DNA of 49,797 nucleotides, from the IMG/VR virus record IMGVR_UViG_3300037587_000281, positions 1 through 49,797 of that record; one strand, 5' to 3'. Position 1 is the stretch's first letter, and every line of letters starts with the position of its first letter. This DNA comes from a virus. The position numbers were made by a program, and so were the translations under genes. Below, piece by piece: positions 1-49,797 of the stretch. The notes under the pieces were generated by a model. It saw nothing but the letters and a program-made list of their open reading frames with translations, did not search any database and was not told the origin of the DNA.

Positions 1-127
1 TCGTGATGTGATATAATGGCCCAATAGCCAAGTTGGCTGACAAATAAAAGTGGGTCACTTAAATGTCAAAAGAAAGAAAGTTAAATCCTAAACAGGAGAA
101 ATTCGCACAAGAAGTTGTATTGAATGG
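1..127. repeat. Terminal overlap, left copy
   Basis: These 127 bases are identical to 49671-49797, so the two ends join and the molecule is circular or circularly permuted (49,670 bp unique). The repeat starts inside the terS promoter and runs into the terS gene. A 127-base overlap is a common assembler k-mer length, so it is more likely an assembly overlap than a true packaged terminal repeat. Confidence 0.95.
9..60 (+). promoter_or_regulatory. Extended -10 promoter and leader hairpins for terS
   Basis: TG-A-TATAAT at 9-17 is an extended -10 box; its upstream part lies across the circle junction just after the terminator at 49641-49661. Bases 17-23 (TGGCCCA) can pair with 51-57 (TGGGTCA, one G-U), which covers the weak ribosome-binding region of terS. 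A second hairpin, AGCCA/TGGCT, lies at 26-30 and 34-38. The predicted transcription start near base 24 falls just after the 5' arm, so only read-through RNA could form the long hairpin. Confidence 0.6.
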
Positions 128-4670: not shown

Positions 4671-4694
4671 TAATTAGGCGCCCAATCAAACCGT

Positions 4695-4728
4695 GATACA
4701 ATGGCTCATTAACTAAACGTGAGCCATT
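4695..4728 (+). promoter_or_regulatory. Promoter with overlapping 9-bp hairpin for the MuF-like gene
   Basis: The -10 box TACAAT is at 4697-4702. Bases 4700-4708 (AATGGCTCA) are perfectly complementary to 4720-4728 (TGAGCCATT), just before the ATG at 4731. The predicted start near 4709 lies immediately after the 5' arm. Read-through RNA would fold the hairpin over the start region, and RNA begun here would not. Confidence 0.6.
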
Positions 4729-4730
4729 TA

Positions 4731-5882
4731 ATGTCCCATACCGATGACACCATTGCTGATTCAATCTTGCGCCGTGAATTTTTTTTACAGCGCTTCGCTT
4801 CTTTCCTCGTTAACAAAGAAGTAGACGGCACAATACAGGCTTTCTCTCGTAAACTACCATCATTGCTTAATGAGTTCGGTGACGCGCAGGATTTAACGCT
4901 AGGTGAGCGCAGGGCGGTAACTAAAGCAGTCACCGTCGAAATGGCCGCGCTATGGACTAGCATGTGGTCAGATATCACTGAGCAACTTGGCGAAATGGCC
5001 GTAATGGACGCGGCTCACGTTGCTGGTGTTTATGATCACCTATTAGGCGTGTCGCTAACATTGCCGGCCGATTCGGTTCTATTGGGCCATATCGCCAATT
5101 CAATCATGACGCTCACATCTGGGAAAAATGTTACAGCCGGGGTGTGGGCCAAATTCATCAAGGACAACACGGACGCAGCGACCAAATCAATTAATGGTGC
5201 CATTTGGAGCGGCTACACATCAGACTTAACCAACCAGCAAATAGCTCAATCAATACGTGGCACGTTTAATCGCTCAACTAAACTTTACCAGGGCGGCATC
5301 TTACAGGGTCGGGTTAGAGCGCAGGCCGACGCATTGGTTAGAACTGGAGTGTCGCATTTTTCTAATTCAGCAAGAGATAGGACCTACGCGGCAAACAAAG
5401 ATATCATCCAGTCTAGGATACTAATAGCCACGTTAGATTCAAGAACTACATTTATTTGCATGAGTAGAAACCTTAGAGAATGGGACATCGATGATCCAAA
5501 CTTCCCTCGCCTACCGTTTCACTTTAACGAGCGATCGGTTTATATCGTAAGAATAAAAGGCATACCACCACTAGAGGGAACAAAGCCCGCGATTGGAGGC
5601 AATAGAGGTACAGAAAAATCAGATTTCAATCGGAAATTCAGAGGGAAGCGCGACTTAGATGTTTATAACGTTAAACAAGTTGCGGCAGACACAAGCAGCG
5701 ACGCATTCCTAAGGCGCCAACCTCGATCATTCATAGAATCAACTCTCGGTGTTGCAAAGTCCAAGCTATTCCTTGATGGCGGATTTACACTTAAAAGATT
5801 TGTTGACGCGACTGGTAGAACTTTGGACCTTAAGCAGCTAAGAAAGATTGACGCGGCAGCATTTAAGAAAGCAGGAATATAG
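4731..5882 (+). CDS. MuF/SPP1 gp7-like minor head protein
   Basis: At 383 residues it resembles head morphogenesis proteins of the Mu gpF/SPP1 gp7 group. The key block is TLDSRTTFICMSRN (about 245-258), followed by LPFHFNERSVYI, corresponding to the DSRT..C...G and PPxHxxCRS motifs; the usual second Cys is absent here. These proteins sit inside the capsid near the portal. The gene precedes the portal, the reverse of the usual order, with a homing gene between them. An upstream GTG at 4719 is less likely because it lies inside the hairpin. Confidence 0.75.
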   Translation: MSHTDDTIADSILRREFFLQRFASFLVNKEVDGTIQAFSRKLPSLLNEFGDAQDLTLGERRAVTKAVTVEMAALWTSMWSDITEQLGEMAVMDAAHVAGVYDHLLGVSLTLPADSVLLGHIANSIMTLTSGKNVTAGVWAKFIKDNTDAATKSINGAIWSGYTSDLTNQQIAQSIRGTFNRSTKLYQGGILQGRVRAQADALVRTGVSHFSNSARDRTYAANKDIIQSRILIATLDSRTTFICMSRNLREWDIDDPNFPRLPFHFNERSVYIVRIKGIPPLEGTKPAIGGNRGTEKSDFNRKFRGKRDLDVYNVKQVAADTSSDAFLRRQPRSFIESTLGVAKSKLFLDGGFTLKRFVDATGRTLDLKQLRKIDAAAFKKAGI

Positions 5883-5896
5883 TTTTTAACTAAATA

Positions 5897-5998
5897 TGTT
5901 ATAATTAAATTGCGCCTAGCTTTAGCGGGTGAAAGTCAGGATTCATAGCCCTGATTGGCGCGCAACTTTTCAGCTATGATTAACCAGTTATGAGGTTA
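5897..5998 (+). promoter_or_regulatory. Promoter and structured leader of homing gene 1
   Basis: An extended -10 box TG-T-TATAAT lies at 5897-5905. The following leader can fold as an outer stem (TTGCGCC near 5911 with GGCGC near 5957) around an inner TCAGG/CCTGA hairpin. A second weak pair, TAACC (5981-5985) with GGTTA (5994-5998), covers the GAGG ribosome site, and a TATGAT box (5975-5980) lies directly in front of its 5' arm. Confidence 0.45.
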
Positions 5999-6000
5999 TT

Positions 6001-6649: not shown

Positions 6650-6658
6650 TGGTAAAAT
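6650..6658 (+). promoter_or_regulatory. Extended -10 promoter before the portal gene
   Basis: TGG-TAAAAT at 6650-6658 matches the extended -10 pattern seen before many genes here. It lies 27 bases before the portal ATG, with a CGGGAC ribosome site between. No clear -35 box. Confidence 0.4.
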
Positions 6659-10160: not shown

Positions 10161-10221
10161 TTGCAAACCCCAATAGATAAGTTAAAATACCCTTACTGTT
10201 AATCGCATTAAGGGTATTTTT
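10161..10221 (+). promoter_or_regulatory. Promoter overlapping a 12-bp hairpin before homing gene 2
   Basis: TTGCAA (10161-10166), a 16-bp spacer and TAAAAT (10183-10188) form a good promoter. AAAATACCCTTA (10184-10195) pairs perfectly with TAAGGGTATTTT (10209-10220), which contains the AAGGG ribosome site and runs into T10221 and the ATG. The predicted start near 10195 removes nearly all of the 5' arm. The hairpin with its T tail could also terminate read-through transcription from the coat gene. Confidence 0.65.
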
Positions 10222-10950
10222 ATGAGACTTAAAGATATTGGAGCAACCGGAGCGAAAAGAAAGGGGTTATCTAAAAGCCCTCTATACGGGATTTGGTCAC
10301 TTATGCTTTATAGGTGTTATGACAAAAATTCAAAATCATATATTAATTATGGAAAGAGGGGGATAACCGTTTGCAATAGATGGTTTTGTTTTGATAATTT
10401 TCATGATGATAATATAAAGCTTTATAATTACGGCTTAGAAATAGATCGAACCGATAATAATGGTGATTACTCACCGGGCAACACAAGATGGGTCACGCAT
10501 TCTCAGAATTGCAGGAATAGAAGAACATCAGTTTTAGCAACAATTAATGGGGTGGAAAAATCAGTTTATGACTGGGCTGATGAGGCGGGAATTAACCCCA
10601 AAATGGTATTAGAAAGAGTTCAGCAGCAAGGATGGAGCATTGAGAGGGCGTTATCAGAACCTACAGCAAATAGGCACGAAAACATGTTAATAGCGCAAGG
10701 TAAGCGATGGGAAGGTCACGTCAAAGTTCCAAAAAGAAAACCAAAGACAGCTAGAAAGATAAGAACCATCGAGTACAAAGGCGAAACAATGACCATTAAG
10801 CAGCTTTCTGATATAGTAGGCGTAAGCGCTAAGCTTTTGAGTAAACGTTTATTTGAAAGAGGCTGGCCTCTTGATAGGGCGGTCACGAATGAAAATTTCA
10901 AAGGCACAAATCAATTTACTAAGGAACAATCATGCAAATCCCAACAGTAA
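10222..10950 (+). CDS. HNH homing endonuclease with DNA-binding repeats
   Basis: The 242-residue protein begins with a phage HNH domain: SPLYGIWSLMLYRCYD, YGKRGITVCNRW, then LEIDRTDNNGDYSPGNTRWV, whose last segment is the HNH core. The C-terminal half has two similar helix-turn-helix units, YDWADEAGINPKMVLERVQQ and IKQLSDIVGVSAKLLSKRLF, each followed by a W-(S/P)-(I/L)-(E/D)-RA motif. These resemble NUMOD-type modules. It lies between coat and connector genes and its 3' end overlaps the next small gene by 19 bases. Confidence 0.8.
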   Translation: MRLKDIGATGAKRKGLSKSPLYGIWSLMLYRCYDKNSKSYINYGKRGITVCNRWFCFDNFHDDNIKLYNYGLEIDRTDNNGDYSPGNTRWVTHSQNCRNRRTSVLATINGVEKSVYDWADEAGINPKMVLERVQQQGWSIERALSEPTANRHENMLIAQGKRWEGHVKVPKRKPKTARKIRTIEYKGETMTIKQLSDIVGVSAKLLSKRLFERGWPLDRAVTNENFKGTNQFTKEQSCKSQQ

Positions 10951-13596: not shown

Positions 13597-13633
13597 CCAC
13601 CGCTTTGATTAATAATCTTGGCGGTGGTACAAT
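13597..13633 (+). promoter_or_regulatory. Inverted-repeat promoter of structured RNA A
   Basis: CCACCGC (13597-13603) and GCGGTGG (13621-13627) form a 7-bp inverted repeat. The loop holds a -35 box TTGATT (13605-13610), spaced 17 bp from TACAAT (13628-13633), and the right arm supplies the extended -10 TGG. The paralogue at 46184-46219 has a different arm sequence that still pairs (CACGGAC/GTCCGTG), so pairing is conserved rather than bases. Confidence 0.7.
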
Positions 13634-13639
13634 TGGTTT

Positions 13640-13742
13640 GTTGATTGGAGTGAAGCCCATAGACAGAAGATAGGATTTAGTAAGTGACTGGTGTTAATTT
13701 TTCATTAACCCGCTTCAACAGTCACCTACTAAGTCCTTTTTT
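13640..13742 (+). ncRNA. Structured small RNA A with pseudoknot and terminator
   Basis: The transcript predicted from the promoter is about 103 nt. A 19-position helix pairs 13672-13690 with 13719-13737 (one A/C mismatch, one G-U) and ends in six T, forming the terminator. Inside it, GTTAAT (13693-13698) pairs with ATTAAC (13704-13709). The upstream TGAAGC (13651-13656) can pair with GCTTCA (13712-13717) inside the big loop, making a pseudoknot. The copy at 46226-46327 has the same four-part plan with different paired bases. No ORF of useful size lies in it. Confidence 0.75.
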
Positions 13743-14063
13743 ATTGCCTCAAGTTCCCCCCTCCAAACATCTAGGCGCTTTACAAAGTTTCCCCTAGGCA
13801 CGAGCCACCAAAAGCAGAAACGTTTACCAAAATAGCTTATATGTACAAATCAATATTAGATCGTCTTTGATAGCGGACGCACTTACACAGCAAATGTAGA
13901 GTGATAAACATCGTTAGTGGGCACTTTAGGTTTGTGACGGCATTATATGGATGTTGACCGTTTCTGATAAAGTTTAATATTGATACATGCTTATATAATT
14001 ATATTAATTAGCTCAGTGGGTAAGTGTCCCTAAGCTATCTAATGACAACTGTGGAGAAATAAA
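13743..14063 (+). other. Noncoding stretch downstream of RNA A
   Basis: About 320 bases with no convincing ORF. Blocks resemble the stretch after RNA B: TTGCCTCA just after the terminator, TATGGAT, TTTAATATTGATACATGCTT, and TTAATTAGCT..GTGGGTA near 14010. GCTTA and TAAGC near 13990 and 14032 could pair around the last block. It leads into the ribosome site of the 14064 gene, so at least the 3' part may be a structured leader. Confidence 0.5.
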
Positions 14064-15096: not shown

Positions 15097-15134
15097 TGTT
15101 ACAATAGCCCTATATTAACTTATCGGGCTTTTTT
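15097..15134 (+). promoter_or_regulatory. Extended -10 promoter overlapping a terminator-like hairpin
   Basis: TGT-TACAAT ends at 15105. AGCCC (15106-15110) pairs with GGGCT (15125-15129), which is followed by six T. The 5' arm lies exactly between the -10 box and the predicted start. Read-through RNA could therefore terminate here and locally started RNA could not. An ATG follows at 15135 but opens only a two-codon ORF, perhaps the relic of a gene start displaced by the homing gene. Confidence 0.6.
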
Positions 15135-15175
15135 AATGGCCTAGGTAGAAGATGGCAGGGTGGTTGCTTTTACTG

Positions 15176-15202
15176 TATAATCTCCAATTAACAGGAGATA
15201 TA
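15176..15202 (+). promoter_or_regulatory. Hairpin hiding the ribosome site of homing gene 3, with embedded -10 box
   Basis: TATA-A-TCTCC (15176-15185) pairs with GGAGATATA (15194-15202), nine pairs with one bulged A, and encloses the only ribosome site of the 15203 gene. The 5' arm itself contains TATAAT (15176-15181). RNA starting from it would begin in the loop and leave the site open. This matches the logic known for T4 homing genes, where early read-through RNA is silent and late RNA is translated. Confidence 0.65.
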
Positions 15203-15949
15203 ATGAATTATATTAAAATATACGAAAGAATCATCGAATCATCTAAAAATAGAATCGCTGATGGCTACACAGAAAAGCATCACATCTTACCTAGATGCAT
15301 GGGTGGTGGAGATGAAAAAGAAAATATAGCGGTCTTAACTGCGAGAGAGCATTTTATTTGCCACTGGCTTTTATACAAGCACTACAGAATTAAGAGTTTA
15401 GCGTTTGCATGGCATATGATGAAAATGAATCTTCGCGGCGCAAGATATACGTCAAGATCATTTAAATATGCAAAAGAAGCATTTTCTAAGGCGATGACTG
15501 AGTTTAACACTGGTAGAGTTGCCAGCGATGAAACAAGAAGAAAGCAATCTATAGCGAAAAAAGGCTGCATCCCTTGGAATAAAGGCATAAGGGTTAAGCA
15601 CAAAAAGTCACAGCTTAGAATTGATTATGATAACAACCCTATATTATGCAAAGAATGCAGAGAGCCTTTAGATTTTAGGTATAGACTTAAAAGAACATAT
15701 TGCTCTAACAAGTGTGCAAATAAGGATATATCAAGTTGGTTTGTTCCGCATGAGGCAATCGTTAATTCTGGAAGCTTTAAAAAAGGCCATGAGATGGAAT
15801 GTTCAACAAGAGGTAAGATATCAAAAAAAATGACAGGAATGAAAAGGCCAAGGGGTGCATGCCCTAATTGCGGCAAAGAAGGGGCTTTAAGCCTTTTGAA
15901 AAGATGGCATTTTGATAATTGTAAGGAGATAGGTAGTGTTAATAGTTGA
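15203..15949 (+). CDS. HNH homing endonuclease with NUMOD-like region
   Basis: The ATG at 15203 is chosen because AGGAGA precedes it. The protein of 248 residues starts with MNYIKIYERIIESSK and an HNH core (EKHHILPRCMGGG, then ENIAVLTAREHFICHWLL). The middle has a NUMOD3-like segment (RRKQSIAKKGCIPWNKG). Two CxxC pairs (CKECRE..., YCSNKC) and a late CPNCGKEG suggest bound zinc. It is inserted before the connector genes, and its 3' end overlaps the next gene by 14 bases. Confidence 0.85.
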   Translation: MNYIKIYERIIESSKNRIADGYTEKHHILPRCMGGGDEKENIAVLTAREHFICHWLLYKHYRIKSLAFAWHMMKMNLRGARYTSRSFKYAKEAFSKAMTEFNTGRVASDETRRKQSIAKKGCIPWNKGIRVKHKKSQLRIDYDNNPILCKECREPLDFRYRLKRTYCSNKCANKDISSWFVPHEAIVNSGSFKKGHEMECSTRGKISKKMTGMKRPRGACPNCGKEGALSLLKRWHFDNCKEIGSVNS

Positions 15950-16427
15950 AACGGGTGCAGGAATTATTGGGTCAAATACTTTTATAACTGATGCTGAGTA
16001 CGTGGCCTATGCTGCGGCGCGCAACCTAACAATAGGCGCAGATGCACCAGCGAGAGAAATTGAGCTTATATTAGCTGTCGACTACCTTACGTCAATCGAA
16101 CAGCGATTCAAAGGCACTAGAGTTGAGTCTGACCAATCATTACTCTACCCGCGTCGAAACGTAATTATATTTAGTGATTTATTCGATCAAGATTCTATCC
16201 CGATTCAATTGAAAAATTCCCAAGCAGAAGCGGCCGCAGCCTCTAACGGGCAATCACTGCTAACCAACGAAACCAATCAAAACGTCAAACGAAATAGACT
16301 TGACACTCTTGAGCAAGAATTCTTTGAGGGTGGCTCATGGTCAGTGGCTAGACTTGATAGGGTTAACGCGGCGCTTAAAGAACTGGTGATTGCTGGTGGA
16401 TTTGGCCGTACCGTAAGGATTTTATAA
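15936..16427 (+). CDS. Head-tail adaptor, DnaT-like connector family
   Basis: The GTG start follows an AAGGAGAT site. The 163-residue protein (GSNTFITDAEYVAYAAARNL, then a helical middle and ALKELVIAGG) matches the small phage family annotated as DnaT-like, which sits at the adaptor position after coat genes. It would join portal to neck. It has 1-base start/stop overlaps with the next genes, forming a tight neck operon. Confidence 0.65.
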   Translation: MLIVETGAGIIGSNTFITDAEYVAYAAARNLTIGADAPAREIELILAVDYLTSIEQRFKGTRVESDQSLLYPRRNVIIFSDLFDQDSIPIQLKNSQAEAAAASNGQSLLTNETNQNVKRNRLDTLEQEFFEGGSWSVARLDRVNAALKELVIAGGFGRTVRIL

Positions 16428-17632: not shown

Positions 17633-18820
17633 ATGAGCTCCACCGTAGCCGATCGGTCGTTATCCGGTAACGATATTTCAGTACACCTTAGCCCTCAAAC
17701 AGCTAAAGGATCCATAGACGTCAGCCCAGTGTTTGATCAATTTCGTAGATTGGAAGGCAAGGCAGCTAAAACAGTGTCCTATGTCACATCTAACGAAGTC
17801 AAAACAAATCGCCAAGCGCGAATGCAAATCCAGGATTCGACAACCCACGCCGCAGAACTAGGCTTTGAGCTTAATGAGTCAACAGCTAAGTATATTGATG
17901 GATTACTTCACGGCGATTCGGTTGACAATGGAATTGTCGGTCAAGTTACGGTTGCCGCAACAGCTACAGGCTTCACTGATTCAGGTAGTGGCTCTGATGC
18001 GCTAGTGGTTGGCGACTGGTTTAAAATCTCAGGCTTTGCTGATAGCACAATCGATGGTTTCTATAAAATATCAGTACTTAATAGCCCGGGTGATTTCGAC
18101 ACCTTACCGGTGCCACCGGCCACAGAAGTTGCAGGGGCATCGGTAACAATCGAGAGTGAAAAAACATCATCTGGTAGCGCTCCAACTTATTACACTGTGC
18201 AAAATCGCACAGTCGATAAGTCAGCAGCCGGCGACATTGCTTATGACACTTTCTTCGATGCGATCATTAATACCGGATCAATTGAAATTGGCGAGACCGG
18301 CATCGTTGCTGGTACGTTCGGATTAAATATCGAAAGCTTAACTTCTGGTGTGGCTTTAATCTCTGGACAAACTGATAACGCCATTGATACATCTGAAGCA
18401 GTTAGCTCGATCAATAACGTAACGACAATTTATGTTGATGGTGTCGATTCGGAATGTAGCGTAAAATCATTCAGCATTGAGTTTACAAATAATTATCAGG
18501 GCGATCGGTCAGCGGCTTGTGACGGCGAGCGTTATGCATTCGGTGACGTTGAATCAACAGGCTCATTAGTTACTCGGGCCGTTATTAGTAATACGTTTGA
18601 TTGGCGCTCACGCTACCGCAACAGCACACCGTTTGCACTAGCTGTATTAATTGAGTTCACTGGCGGTCGATGGATGATCTTCGAGGTTATGCAGGCAATC
18701 GCTACAGAACACACGATGCCTGATGGTTCCAATGTGATAGCATCGAACGAGCTCTCGTATGCAGCCGAAGAAGATTCGGCAACCGCTAAGACGTTGCAGT
18801 TTTTCAGGAATTTTACGTAA
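17633..18820 (+). CDS. Major tail tube protein
   Basis: The 395-residue protein matches phage tail tube proteins of the long type. Evidence is the N-terminal VSPVFDQFRRLEGKA region, the TNRQARMQIQDSTTHAAELG block and a conserved end with SFSIEFTNNYQGDRS. Residues about 95-190 (VGDWFKISGFADS and following) form an extra Ig-like or beta domain. It polymerises into the tail tube. It has its own promoter. Confidence 0.8.
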   Translation: MSSTVADRSLSGNDISVHLSPQTAKGSIDVSPVFDQFRRLEGKAAKTVSYVTSNEVKTNRQARMQIQDSTTHAAELGFELNESTAKYIDGLLHGDSVDNGIVGQVTVAATATGFTDSGSGSDALVVGDWFKISGFADSTIDGFYKISVLNSPGDFDTLPVPPATEVAGASVTIESEKTSSGSAPTYYTVQNRTVDKSAAGDIAYDTFFDAIINTGSIEIGETGIVAGTFGLNIESLTSGVALISGQTDNAIDTSEAVSSINNVTTIYVDGVDSECSVKSFSIEFTNNYQGDRSAACDGERYAFGDVESTGSLVTRAVISNTFDWRSRYRNSTPFALAVLIEFTGGRWMIFEVMQAIATEHTMPDGSNVIASNELSYAAEEDSATAKTLQFFRNFT

Positions 18821-18827
18821 ACTGTAG

Positions 18828-18886
18828 TACAATAAACATGTGGATAGGCTCATTACCGAACACCGTCTAGTCAACGGCCTCCACAT
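18828..18886 (+). promoter_or_regulatory. Promoter and branched leader of homing gene 4
   Basis: TACAAT lies at 18828-18833. ATGTGGA (18838-18844) pairs with TCCACAT (18880-18886), closing a loop that holds a CCGT/ACGG hairpin. The layout resembles the branched leader of the 6001 homing gene. Confidence 0.4.
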
Positions 18887-18917
18887 ATATTTCGACTACC
18901 TTTGACGAGGATTCAAT

Positions 18918-19556
18918 ATGTTTAATTTCCCACTTAAAAAAGCAAGCGCAAGATCGATCTCAAGAAGAAAGCCGGTTTATGGAGTTGGAATTAACGATTC
19001 TGATTACGTCGTGACCATAAAAATAAACAACAAGAGAAAGATCTGCCCGATATATAAAATATGGGCAAACATGCTTAAGCGATGCTACTGTAATGAGTTT
19101 CAAATAAAGAATCCTGCATATAATGGCTGTAAAGTTGTTTCATGGTGGAGAACGTTTAGTCATTTTAGGATCTGGGTAATAACCCAAGACTGGCAAGGGA
19201 AGGATTTAGATAAGGATTTTATTTTTAGCAACAATAAGATTTACTCGCCAAGCTCATGCTTGTTTGTTAATAGCGACATAAACAGACTTGTAGAAAAAAG
19301 AACAATATCAACTGGGCCTACTGCTTACGGAACTTATCTGGACAAAAGAAGAAGCTTATTTGTAGCAAGGTGTAGCGTAAGATCAAAAGATGTATGGATA
19401 GGCTCATATAAAAAAGAGAAAGAAGCAGGCGAGGCGTTTTTAAAATTCAAGTCTAATCACGTTCACGAAATAGCATTGCAGCAAACGGACGAGCGATTAA
19501 AACAGGCGCTAATCAGGATATCAGGCGAGATTAGCCGAGGCGAATACTACCAATAA
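18918..19556 (+). CDS. HNH/AP2-type homing endonuclease-like protein 4
   Basis: The 212-residue protein is a relative of the one at 6001: GVGINDSDYVV, MLKRCYC, NPAYNGC, QDWQGKDLDKDF and NNKIYSPSSCLFV. Some family positions have changed, for example the usual C.EW is VSWW. The C-terminal AP2-like part (GTYLDKRRSLFVARC, IGSYKKEKEAGEAF) is kept. It separates the tail tube gene from the tail chaperone gene. GAGGA precedes the ATG. Confidence 0.75.
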   Translation: MFNFPLKKASARSISRRKPVYGVGINDSDYVVTIKINNKRKICPIYKIWANMLKRCYCNEFQIKNPAYNGCKVVSWWRTFSHFRIWVITQDWQGKDLDKDFIFSNNKIYSPSSCLFVNSDINRLVEKRTISTGPTAYGTYLDKRRSLFVARCSVRSKDVWIGSYKKEKEAGEAFLKFKSNHVHEIALQQTDERLKQALIRISGEISRGEYYQ

Positions 19557-46183: not shown

Positions 46184-46219
46184 CACGGACTTTTGATTAT
46201 TCATGGTCCGTGGTACAAT
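46184..46219 (+). promoter_or_regulatory. Inverted-repeat promoter of structured RNA B
   Basis: CACGGAC (46184-46190) pairs with GTCCGTG (46206-46212). The arm runs into TGG-TACAAT (46211-46219), an extended -10 box. The loop holds TTGATT, here only 15 bp from the -10. The pairing is kept although four arm bases differ from copy A. Confidence 0.65.
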
Positions 46220-46225
46220 GGTTTT

Positions 46226-46327
46226 GTTGATTGGCGTCGGAACCAAAAGACACTAGATAGGGTTTAGTTAGTAACTGTGATGATTCAACATCATCATTCC
46301 GACCAGTTACTAGACTAAGCCTTTTTT
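46226..46327 (+). ncRNA. Structured small RNA B with pseudoknot and terminator
   Basis: Main helix: 46261-46277 with 46304-46321, 17 pairs and one bulged G, followed by six T. Inner hairpin: TGATGA (46278-46283) with TCATCA (46291-46296). Pseudoknot: GTCGGAA (46236-46242) with TTCCGAC (46297-46303), seven pairs lying directly between the inner hairpin and the main helix. Every helix differs in sequence from copy A but pairs in the same place. The leader TTGTTGATTGG and the end CCTTTTTTA(A/T)TGCCTC are nearly identical in both. Confidence 0.75.
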
Positions 46328-46671
46328 AATGCCTCAGTTTTACGTCAAGATTTATCCTAGAGCACATTCTTTATCAACAAAACATGATATTCAAAGCTAC
46401 GAATCAAAATAGCAATTAACACAAAGTCCAAGCACTGTCCCGCCATGACAACTTGGCCCCATCATGAAACTCTATGAGTGTCAGCGTTATTTATAACGAC
46501 CGAGTAATCGGGTTAGGGGATCAATTAGTACCTATGGATTGTTATTTGGTCCATATTTAACTAGATACACGCTTTGCCATCTTGGATAAGCCCTTTAGTT
46601 AACTAGCTGTGTAGGTATCAGTTAGGGGAAAATGGCTTAACTATGTCTTAAATTAATAATTGGAGAATAAA
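46328..46671 (+). other. Noncoding stretch downstream of RNA B
   Basis: About 340 bases without a convincing ORF. It shares spaced blocks with 13743-14063: ATGCCTCA, TATGGAT, TTTAACTAGATACACGCTT and TTAACTAGCT..GTAGGTA. Near the end AAGCC and GGCTT, and AGTTA and TAACT, can pair just before the GGAG site of the next gene. It may be a structured leader or a second RNA. Confidence 0.5.
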
Positions 46672-48789: not shown

Positions 48790-49006
48790 GATGGCGTTTG
48801 TTTCGAATGGCGAGGCAAACGTATTTATTAAAATGTGCAAGCGGCGCAAGGGTAGGAAGGCGATCCATAAGTGCAGCCCTTACCTTTGCCCGAAGTGCGG
48901 GTTGTTCCATCTAACCAGCCAGAAAGGGAAGGTATCGACAGGCAGAAAGAAAGCATTGCGAAGAAACTTAAAATTAAAAGGGGATGACCATGATAACAAT
49001 AAGTAA
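48776..49006 (+). CDS. Basic zinc-finger-like protein, paralogue of the 14713 gene, 76 aa
   Basis: MTCGKMAFVSNGEANVF, then CSPYLCPKCGLFHLTSQ, with many Lys/Arg. The C(G)K start and CxxCxxxHxTS motif are shared with the 14713 gene, so the two accessory islands hold related genes as well as related RNAs. Probably a nucleic-acid-binding protein. Confidence 0.6.
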   Translation: MTCGKMAFVSNGEANVFIKMCKRRKGRKAIHKCSPYLCPKCGLFHLTSQKGKVSTGRKKALRRNLKLKGDDHDNNK

Positions 49007-49670: not shown

Positions 49671-49797
49671 TCGTGATGTGATATAATGGCCCAATAGCCA
49701 AGTTGGCTGACAAATAAAAGTGGGTCACTTAAATGTCAAAAGAAAGAAAGTTAAATCCTAAACAGGAGAAATTCGCACAAGAAGTTGTATTGAATGG
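49671..49797. repeat. Terminal overlap, right copy
   Basis: Identical to 1-127. It repeats the terS promoter and the first 65 bases of terS, so the terS fragment here is not a second gene. Confidence 0.95.

Follow-up and report, generated by a model that had tools for sequence, protein, structure and literature searches.

Promoter-bearing hairpins before a MuF gene and other phage genes probably restrict translation to RNA from the gene's own promoter

Passages of PMC2988022 and PMC3014915 describe start hairpins whose 5' arm contains a late promoter, at T4 gene e, soc and 49, at I-TevI, I-TevII, I-TevIII and segB, and at Aeh1 mobE. In T4, according to these passages, long upstream RNAs fold over the Shine-Dalgarno sequence (SD) and the AUG, and transcripts begun at the 5'-arm promoter come without that arm and are translated; such hairpins serve homing endonucleases and late genes alike (PMC2988022, PMC3014915). 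T4 mobE and segF are described, in a passage of the first paper, as having terminators inside the coding region (PMC2988022). The part of PMC2965389 on IS10/Tn10 and IS200 reports a mobile gene that hairpins or 5' terminators protect against transcription from outside, and its part on the rimP leader an intrinsic terminator that overlaps the ribosome-binding site (RBS), with a stem and a T-stretch possibly reaching the RBS. In the open-licence PMC literature, a scope that most phage classics fall outside, we found no mention of a phage start codon preceded by a terminator with a promoter inside it; this silence on the fused arrangement is weak evidence of novelty.

The DNA analysed here, the window, is a stretch of 49,797 nucleotides from a circularly repeating phage record (G000) with a 127-bp end repeat. 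It contains a MuF-type head morphogenesis gene (4731..5882, ATG at 4731, + strand; phrog_241, E 1e-81) preceded on the same strand by the extended -10 box TGATACAAT (4694..4702), that is, TACAAT at 4697-4702 with TG in front; TATAAT or TACAAT was kept in 7/7 relatives examined. The preliminary description reported a perfect 9-bp pair at this gene, one arm of which is formed by the stretch from the -10 box to the start, and we found both statements to be accurate. The 5' arm AATGGCTCA (4700..4708, +) is made up of the final three -10 bases plus the discriminator, and it pairs across a loop of 11 with the 3' arm TGAGCCATT (4720..4728, +), which spans a weak Shine-Dalgarno-like GTGAG; one added G-T pair extends the stem to 10 bp. 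The 5' arm spans the bases from the -10 box to the predicted RNA start, about 7 nt past the box at 4709 and immediately beyond the arm, and the 3' arm overlies the ribosome site before the ATG. The entire leader was predicted to fold with -12.6 kcal/mol and the leader begun at 4709 with 0.0. The predicted mean unpaired probability of positions -13..-4 was 0.11 in read-through RNA and 0.47 in promoter-started RNA.

We think it probable that this hairpin is a gate with a promoter inside it, such that read-through RNA is silenced and RNA from the gene's own promoter is translated, often with a terminator fused to it. Geometry, compensated conservation, position at gene starts and recurrence in unrelated phages, described below, can be read directly from the DNA. 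We infer promoter use, the RNA start position and the silencing or termination of read-through as follows. A sigma70-like promoter, often with an extended -10, would contribute its box-to-start bases as the 5' arm, and the 3' arm would be the SD region or, in one relative, the start codon region. Read-through RNA from upstream would carry both arms and fold, making the start untranslatable, and a stem followed by a U-tract, which would double as the SD-ATG spacer, would also cause intrinsic termination. RNA from the embedded promoter would begin about 7 nt after the box, in or past the 5' arm, and its start would be open; RNA that started 6-8 nt after the box would be without the 5' arm. In fold predictions, the SD region opened more in promoter-started than in read-through RNA in 15/16 leaders, two of which (terS) differed by 0.00-0.01 only. 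In read-through RNA, the hairpin was predicted to cover the SD or the start codon at the MuF, HNH and 15203 sites and in relatives, and not clearly so at terS.

Protein searches with MuF yielded six relatives of 48-87% identity (L002-L007, corresponding to G001-G006), and a pattern scan added one further distinct relative (L162, also seen as L167). The distant matches L008 and L188 were left out, and a profile search found no additional close relative. The hairpin abutting the -10 box was retained in 7/7 relatives examined, with differing bases and a start codon close behind. The leader reads TATAAT-GCCCTA-n8-TAGGGC-TTTTTT-ATG in L005 and L007, the stem is GCCTGAT/ATCGGGC in L002 and has 11 pairs in L006, and the start codon in L004 is TTG. 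In L003 (G002), the usual register of pairing has been lost, and that same 5' arm forms a 12-bp stem with the start codon region instead. The SD region of L003 is then predicted to be open in read-through RNA, which counts against the gate. A G+C-rich stem with an immediate U-tract, as in an intrinsic terminator, was found at 10183, at 15100 and in L002, L005, L006 and L007, and not at the window MuF gene (...GCCATTTAATG). Five of the seven MuF leaders of the window and G001-G006 have a U-tract. Because the pairing of discriminator with translation start is constant in orthologues while the U-tract comes and goes, translation silencing would be the core of the element and termination an addition at some sites and orthologues only. 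The SDs of MuF and terS are weak by eye.

We tested the pairing by swapping arms between MuF leaders, because a MAFFT alignment, rejected as a stem test, misplaced the stem. Eight of 10 aligned leaders were used (L221 and L222 were omitted, and the G002 entry was lengthened beyond the start codon). Cognate arms gave a mean of -13.05 kcal/mol and arms exchanged between orthologues -7.31, and 15 of 40,000 permutations were equally good. In Pseudoalteromonas phage HS1 and Alteromonas phage R9Y2, MuF lies a few bases after terL and is without such a leader; other genes separate MuF from terL by 2.9 kb in the window and by 2.6 kb in G002. Absence of the leader where MuF adjoins terL fits the gate. 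A near-identity search of the first 25 kb of the window against GenBank phages found no match, and an Rfam search of the window returned nothing. Elsewhere in the window, 13604-13751 and 46192-46336, with copies in G001 and G002 by blastn, are probably a phage small-RNA family of about 110-130 nt with a promoter-like box TGGTACAAT, a long terminal stem plus T6 and, immediately before the box, a hairpin whose sequence varies. These candidates had no Rfam match, and the second copy had no match in GenBank phages.

The head-tail adaptor gene Ad1 (15936..16427, +; phrog_477, E 2e-33) has been displaced from a leader of the same design at 15100..15135 (+). This leader has TACAAT at 15100-15105, a stem at 15106-15114/15121-15129 (AGCCC-TATA / TATC-GGGCT, one mismatch), a U6 tract at 15129-15134 and an ATG at 15136 that opens a 2-codon remnant. 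In 5/5 relatives (G001, G002, G003, G005 and G006), the adaptor gene is immediately preceded by a -10-like box, a hairpin and T6 to T7, and the G001 leader is the same as the window leader from box to ATG. Between the leader and the adaptor gene lies a homing endonuclease gene (15203..15949, +; phrog_655, E 2e-55) that is missing at that place in relatives. We also noted that 15136-15175 are likely fossil first adaptor codons (ATG GCC TAG GTA GAA GAT GGC), still beside the leader, and that the adaptor gene restarts at 15936, within the last codons of the endonuclease. Since relatives' adaptor genes carry such a leader, G001's is identical and codon remains adjoin it, 15100 is most likely, from sequence comparison, the adaptor's native leader severed by the endonuclease insertion. 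The inserted gene most likely brings its own promoter (15176..15199, +), with TATAAT at 15176-15181 and an SD-hiding stem at 15180-15185/15194-15199 (CTCC/GGAG). In the adaptor leaders, covariation was scored on seven aligned leaders; the other two of the nine available were repeats. The stem of nine pairs had 95% of cells paired and three pairs changed on both sides, and none of 500 shuffles matched its covariation score.

An HNH endonuclease gene (10222-10950, +; phrog_3377, E 5e-58), which adjoins the major head protein gene, has the design as well (10183..10221, +), by hairpin score and fold. TAAAAT at 10183-10188 is followed by perfect 10-bp arms at 10186-10195/10209-10218 (AATACCCTTA/TAAGGGTATT), a U-tract and the ATG. 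HNH genes of the phrog_953 kind (6001, and copies in relatives) have structured leaders of a different design that begin some 5 nt past TATAAT or TACAAT (window 5897-6000 and 18815-18920; G001 17154 and 5473), with nested stems such as GCGCC..TCAGG..CCTGA..GGCGC. Yet another arrangement was seen in L312-L315, at about 600-650, where HNH genes of E. coli and Klebsiella phages overlap the upstream gene and have a GGGG..CCCC stem in the first codons; ARNold calls this stem a terminator in mEp554, and it resembles the coding-region terminators of T4 mobE and segF.

The layout recurs in unrelated phages. The pattern TATAATGCCCT-N4-20-AGGGCTTTT had 19 matches in viral contigs, and an open reading frame (ORF) of at least 40 codons began within 14 nt in 17 of them (14/16 with repeats removed). 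An ATG or GTG lay within 8 nt in 18/19, though the pattern holds no start codon. Bacterial genomes had 28 matches, of which 4 opened at least 40 codons by the 14-nt rule with TTG allowed and 2 by the stricter 8-nt rule (ATG or GTG); the ORF fractions of the distinct viral and bacterial sets differed (Fisher 2e-7). A control with a permuted box had 3 matches (1/3 with an ORF) and a control with swapped arms, thus no SD in the 3' arm, had 5 (0/5); pooled viral matches against both controls gave P = 0.03 only, the controls being few. A second, weaker stem, TATAATAGCCC..GGGCTTTTT, had 21 viral matches, 12 with an ORF by the looser rule and 11 by the stricter. The genes behind pattern matches include those for GIY-YIG homing endonucleases (L091 and L103, phrog_314; L094, L095, L096 and L102 by eye), HNH endonucleases (L101 and L107, phrog_2340), MuF proteins, and head closure-like (L090) and sigma-factor-like (L093) proteins. 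The GIY-YIG protein of L091 and its leader had no match in GenBank phages. For a related HNH gene in 10 GenBank isolates, the layout was present in 3 (Aeromonas 4_L372X, Vibrio F89 and Pararheinheimera KLER1-1) and absent in 7.

A scan without the box, GCCCT..AGGGCTTTTTTATG, gave at least 120 matches, with 69 distinct among the 80 listed. Among the matches listed, a -10-like box stood 0-3 nt before the stem in 15/26 with an ORF of at least 60 codons and in 5/42 whose ATG opens fewer than 30 codons (Fisher 9e-5; one match of intermediate ORF length left out). At offsets -7..-4 there was no excess among those listed (1/26 vs 2/42). Five of the 15, again among matches listed, were integrases of one family, also found in the P2-like Klebsiella phage KP12. 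The P2-type integrase genes of L192, L209, L210, L227 and L241, and of L318, start immediately after a GCCCTC..GAGGGC terminator stem plus T6, and the -35/-10-like boxes, partly assigned by eye, end 2-3 nt before the stem. In L198, L234 and L259, genes for proteins starting MIIGVCGFIGSGKDT (deoxynucleotide-kinase-like by eye) have a TTGAC-type -35, an A-rich -10 and again this stem, T6 and ATG in order.

A simpler explanation, which we regard as unlikely, is that an upstream terminator and the next promoter share the same bases for economy, with no silencing of translation. In its favour, the adaptor and HNH sites and the five MuF leaders have U-tracts, and the adaptor gene of Alteromonas phage R9Y2 has a conventional terminator and a separate SD. 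However, the window MuF, window terS and 15203 sites pair despite having no U-tract, the MuF leader of G002 preserves pairing to the start codon region, and the arm-swapped terminator pattern had no gene behind it in 5/5.

The terS leader (12..57, +), identified by geometry and inner-stem compensation in G001, is the weakest of the sites. Its -10 box at 12-17 is followed by outer arms at 17-23/51-57 and an inner stem at 26-30/34-38, and a second copy lies at 49682 in the end repeat. The outer stem has one G-T pair in the window and two in G001, with a mismatch in G003 by eye; the inner stem of G001 shows compensated change. Fold predictions show no accessibility switch at terS between read-through and promoter-started RNA. 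Here the inner stem would remain at the RNA 5' end and is conserved with compensation, in line with a hairpin that stabilises the promoter's own RNA. As an account of the element this is very unlikely: at the MuF and adaptor genes and at the two endonuclease genes, RNA is predicted to start within or past the 5' arm, which leaves a leader that is nearly or wholly unstructured (MFE 0 in 12/14 leaders of those sites).

A perfect repeat adjoining a -10 box could also be an operator, bound as DNA by a phage regulator. We consider this highly improbable, as no one sequence recurs: the bases change from site to site and among orthologues, yet the arms stay paired through compensatory changes, arm spacing is variable, and none of the 5 arm-swapped matches stood at a gene.

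The preliminary description placed the design at five or more sites, among them terS (17-23 with 51-57) and 15100-15129, and took it as a genome-wide way to isolate transcription units beyond the control of homing genes. Both named sites exist, with one G-T pair and one mismatch, respectively, and the number holds as five (12, 4697, 10183, 15100 and 15176), including the 10183 site absent from its list. The design does precede structural genes as well as homing endonuclease genes. However, the check it proposed, scanning for inverted repeats by TAYAAT boxes, gave 5 cases in the window, where shuffles averaged 3.43 +- 1.84 and 7 of 30 reached 5; among seven phages, G005 alone exceeded all 30 shuffles. 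Since such generic repeats are not enriched, "genome-wide" is unsupported. Promoter-like TGNTANAAT boxes before window genes at 6650, 8194, 12607, 19585 and 27090 have no abutting hairpin, and the element marks a few unit boundaries. As for isolation of transcription units, the design does stand at unit boundaries in relatives (terS, MuF and head-tail adaptor), with covarying stems, but the phrase is too narrow because the window MuF and terS sites are without a U-tract; the shared part is hiding of the start.

We also scored hairpins ending just before a start codon, with approximate values for the -10 box weight matrix. Four window genes reached 24.5 or more, where 40 shuffles averaged 0.07; over seven phages, 15 of 476 ORFs did so against a shuffled mean of 0.82 (max 3; 40 shuffles). 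This threshold was picked after a lenient run in which the excess was weak (42 vs 28.6, max 39). The 15203 site, at 21.8, falls short of it, and the 15100 leader is uncounted, its ATG opening a remnant only. One of the four window genes, at 48833, was dropped as chance, the start being 12 nt away. The generic scan would agree with a chance hairpin near a chance -10 box, but orthologue conservation with covariation and gene-start enrichment make coincidence exceedingly doubtful.

Inserted genes may be transcribed at another time. We suggest, tentatively, that phages share a modular gate of about 35 bases, nesting the -10 box, anti-SD/terminator arm, RNA start, SD/terminator arm, U-tract spacer and start codon, that makes any gene, whether mobile or structural, readable solely from its own promoter and unresponsive to transcription from its neighbours. 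It may have arisen or been fixed repeatedly at insertions of homing endonucleases, morons or integrases, and may have spread from these insertions to essential genes. If the gate works as proposed, such sites would reveal the boundaries of phage transcription units in the sequence, and homing or accessory genes could sit in late operons with neither mis-expression nor silencing of neighbours. It would also be a very short part, driven by host RNA polymerase, that frees a gene from its surroundings.

Compared with known systems, the element would follow the same principle as T4 gene e and I-TevI, a start-hiding hairpin with an embedded promoter. The T4 promoters are late promoters (TATAAATA) needing gp55, whereas the boxes here are TACAAT, TATAAT and TAAAAT, often with TG. 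A fused terminator is not described in the passages of PMC2988022 on T4, and here the stem is often fused with one. The genes differ as well, being MuF, head-tail adaptor, HNH and GIY-YIG endonuclease and P2-type integrase genes. Shielding from outside transcription would be shared with IS10/Tn10 and IS200; unlike there, structural genes would be shielded too and a hairpin arm is the promoter discriminator. The gene that would be protected is of the homing endonuclease kind, and in that sense mobile, at 10222 and 15203, and not at MuF and Ad1. The stem plus a T-stretch that may extend to the RBS resembles the rimP leader as given in PMC2965389, in which the arms have the opposite G/C order and the part concerned describes no embedded promoter. 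What sets the arrangement found here apart is the sigma70-like box, the fusion with an intrinsic terminator and the placement before MuF and Ad1 genes.
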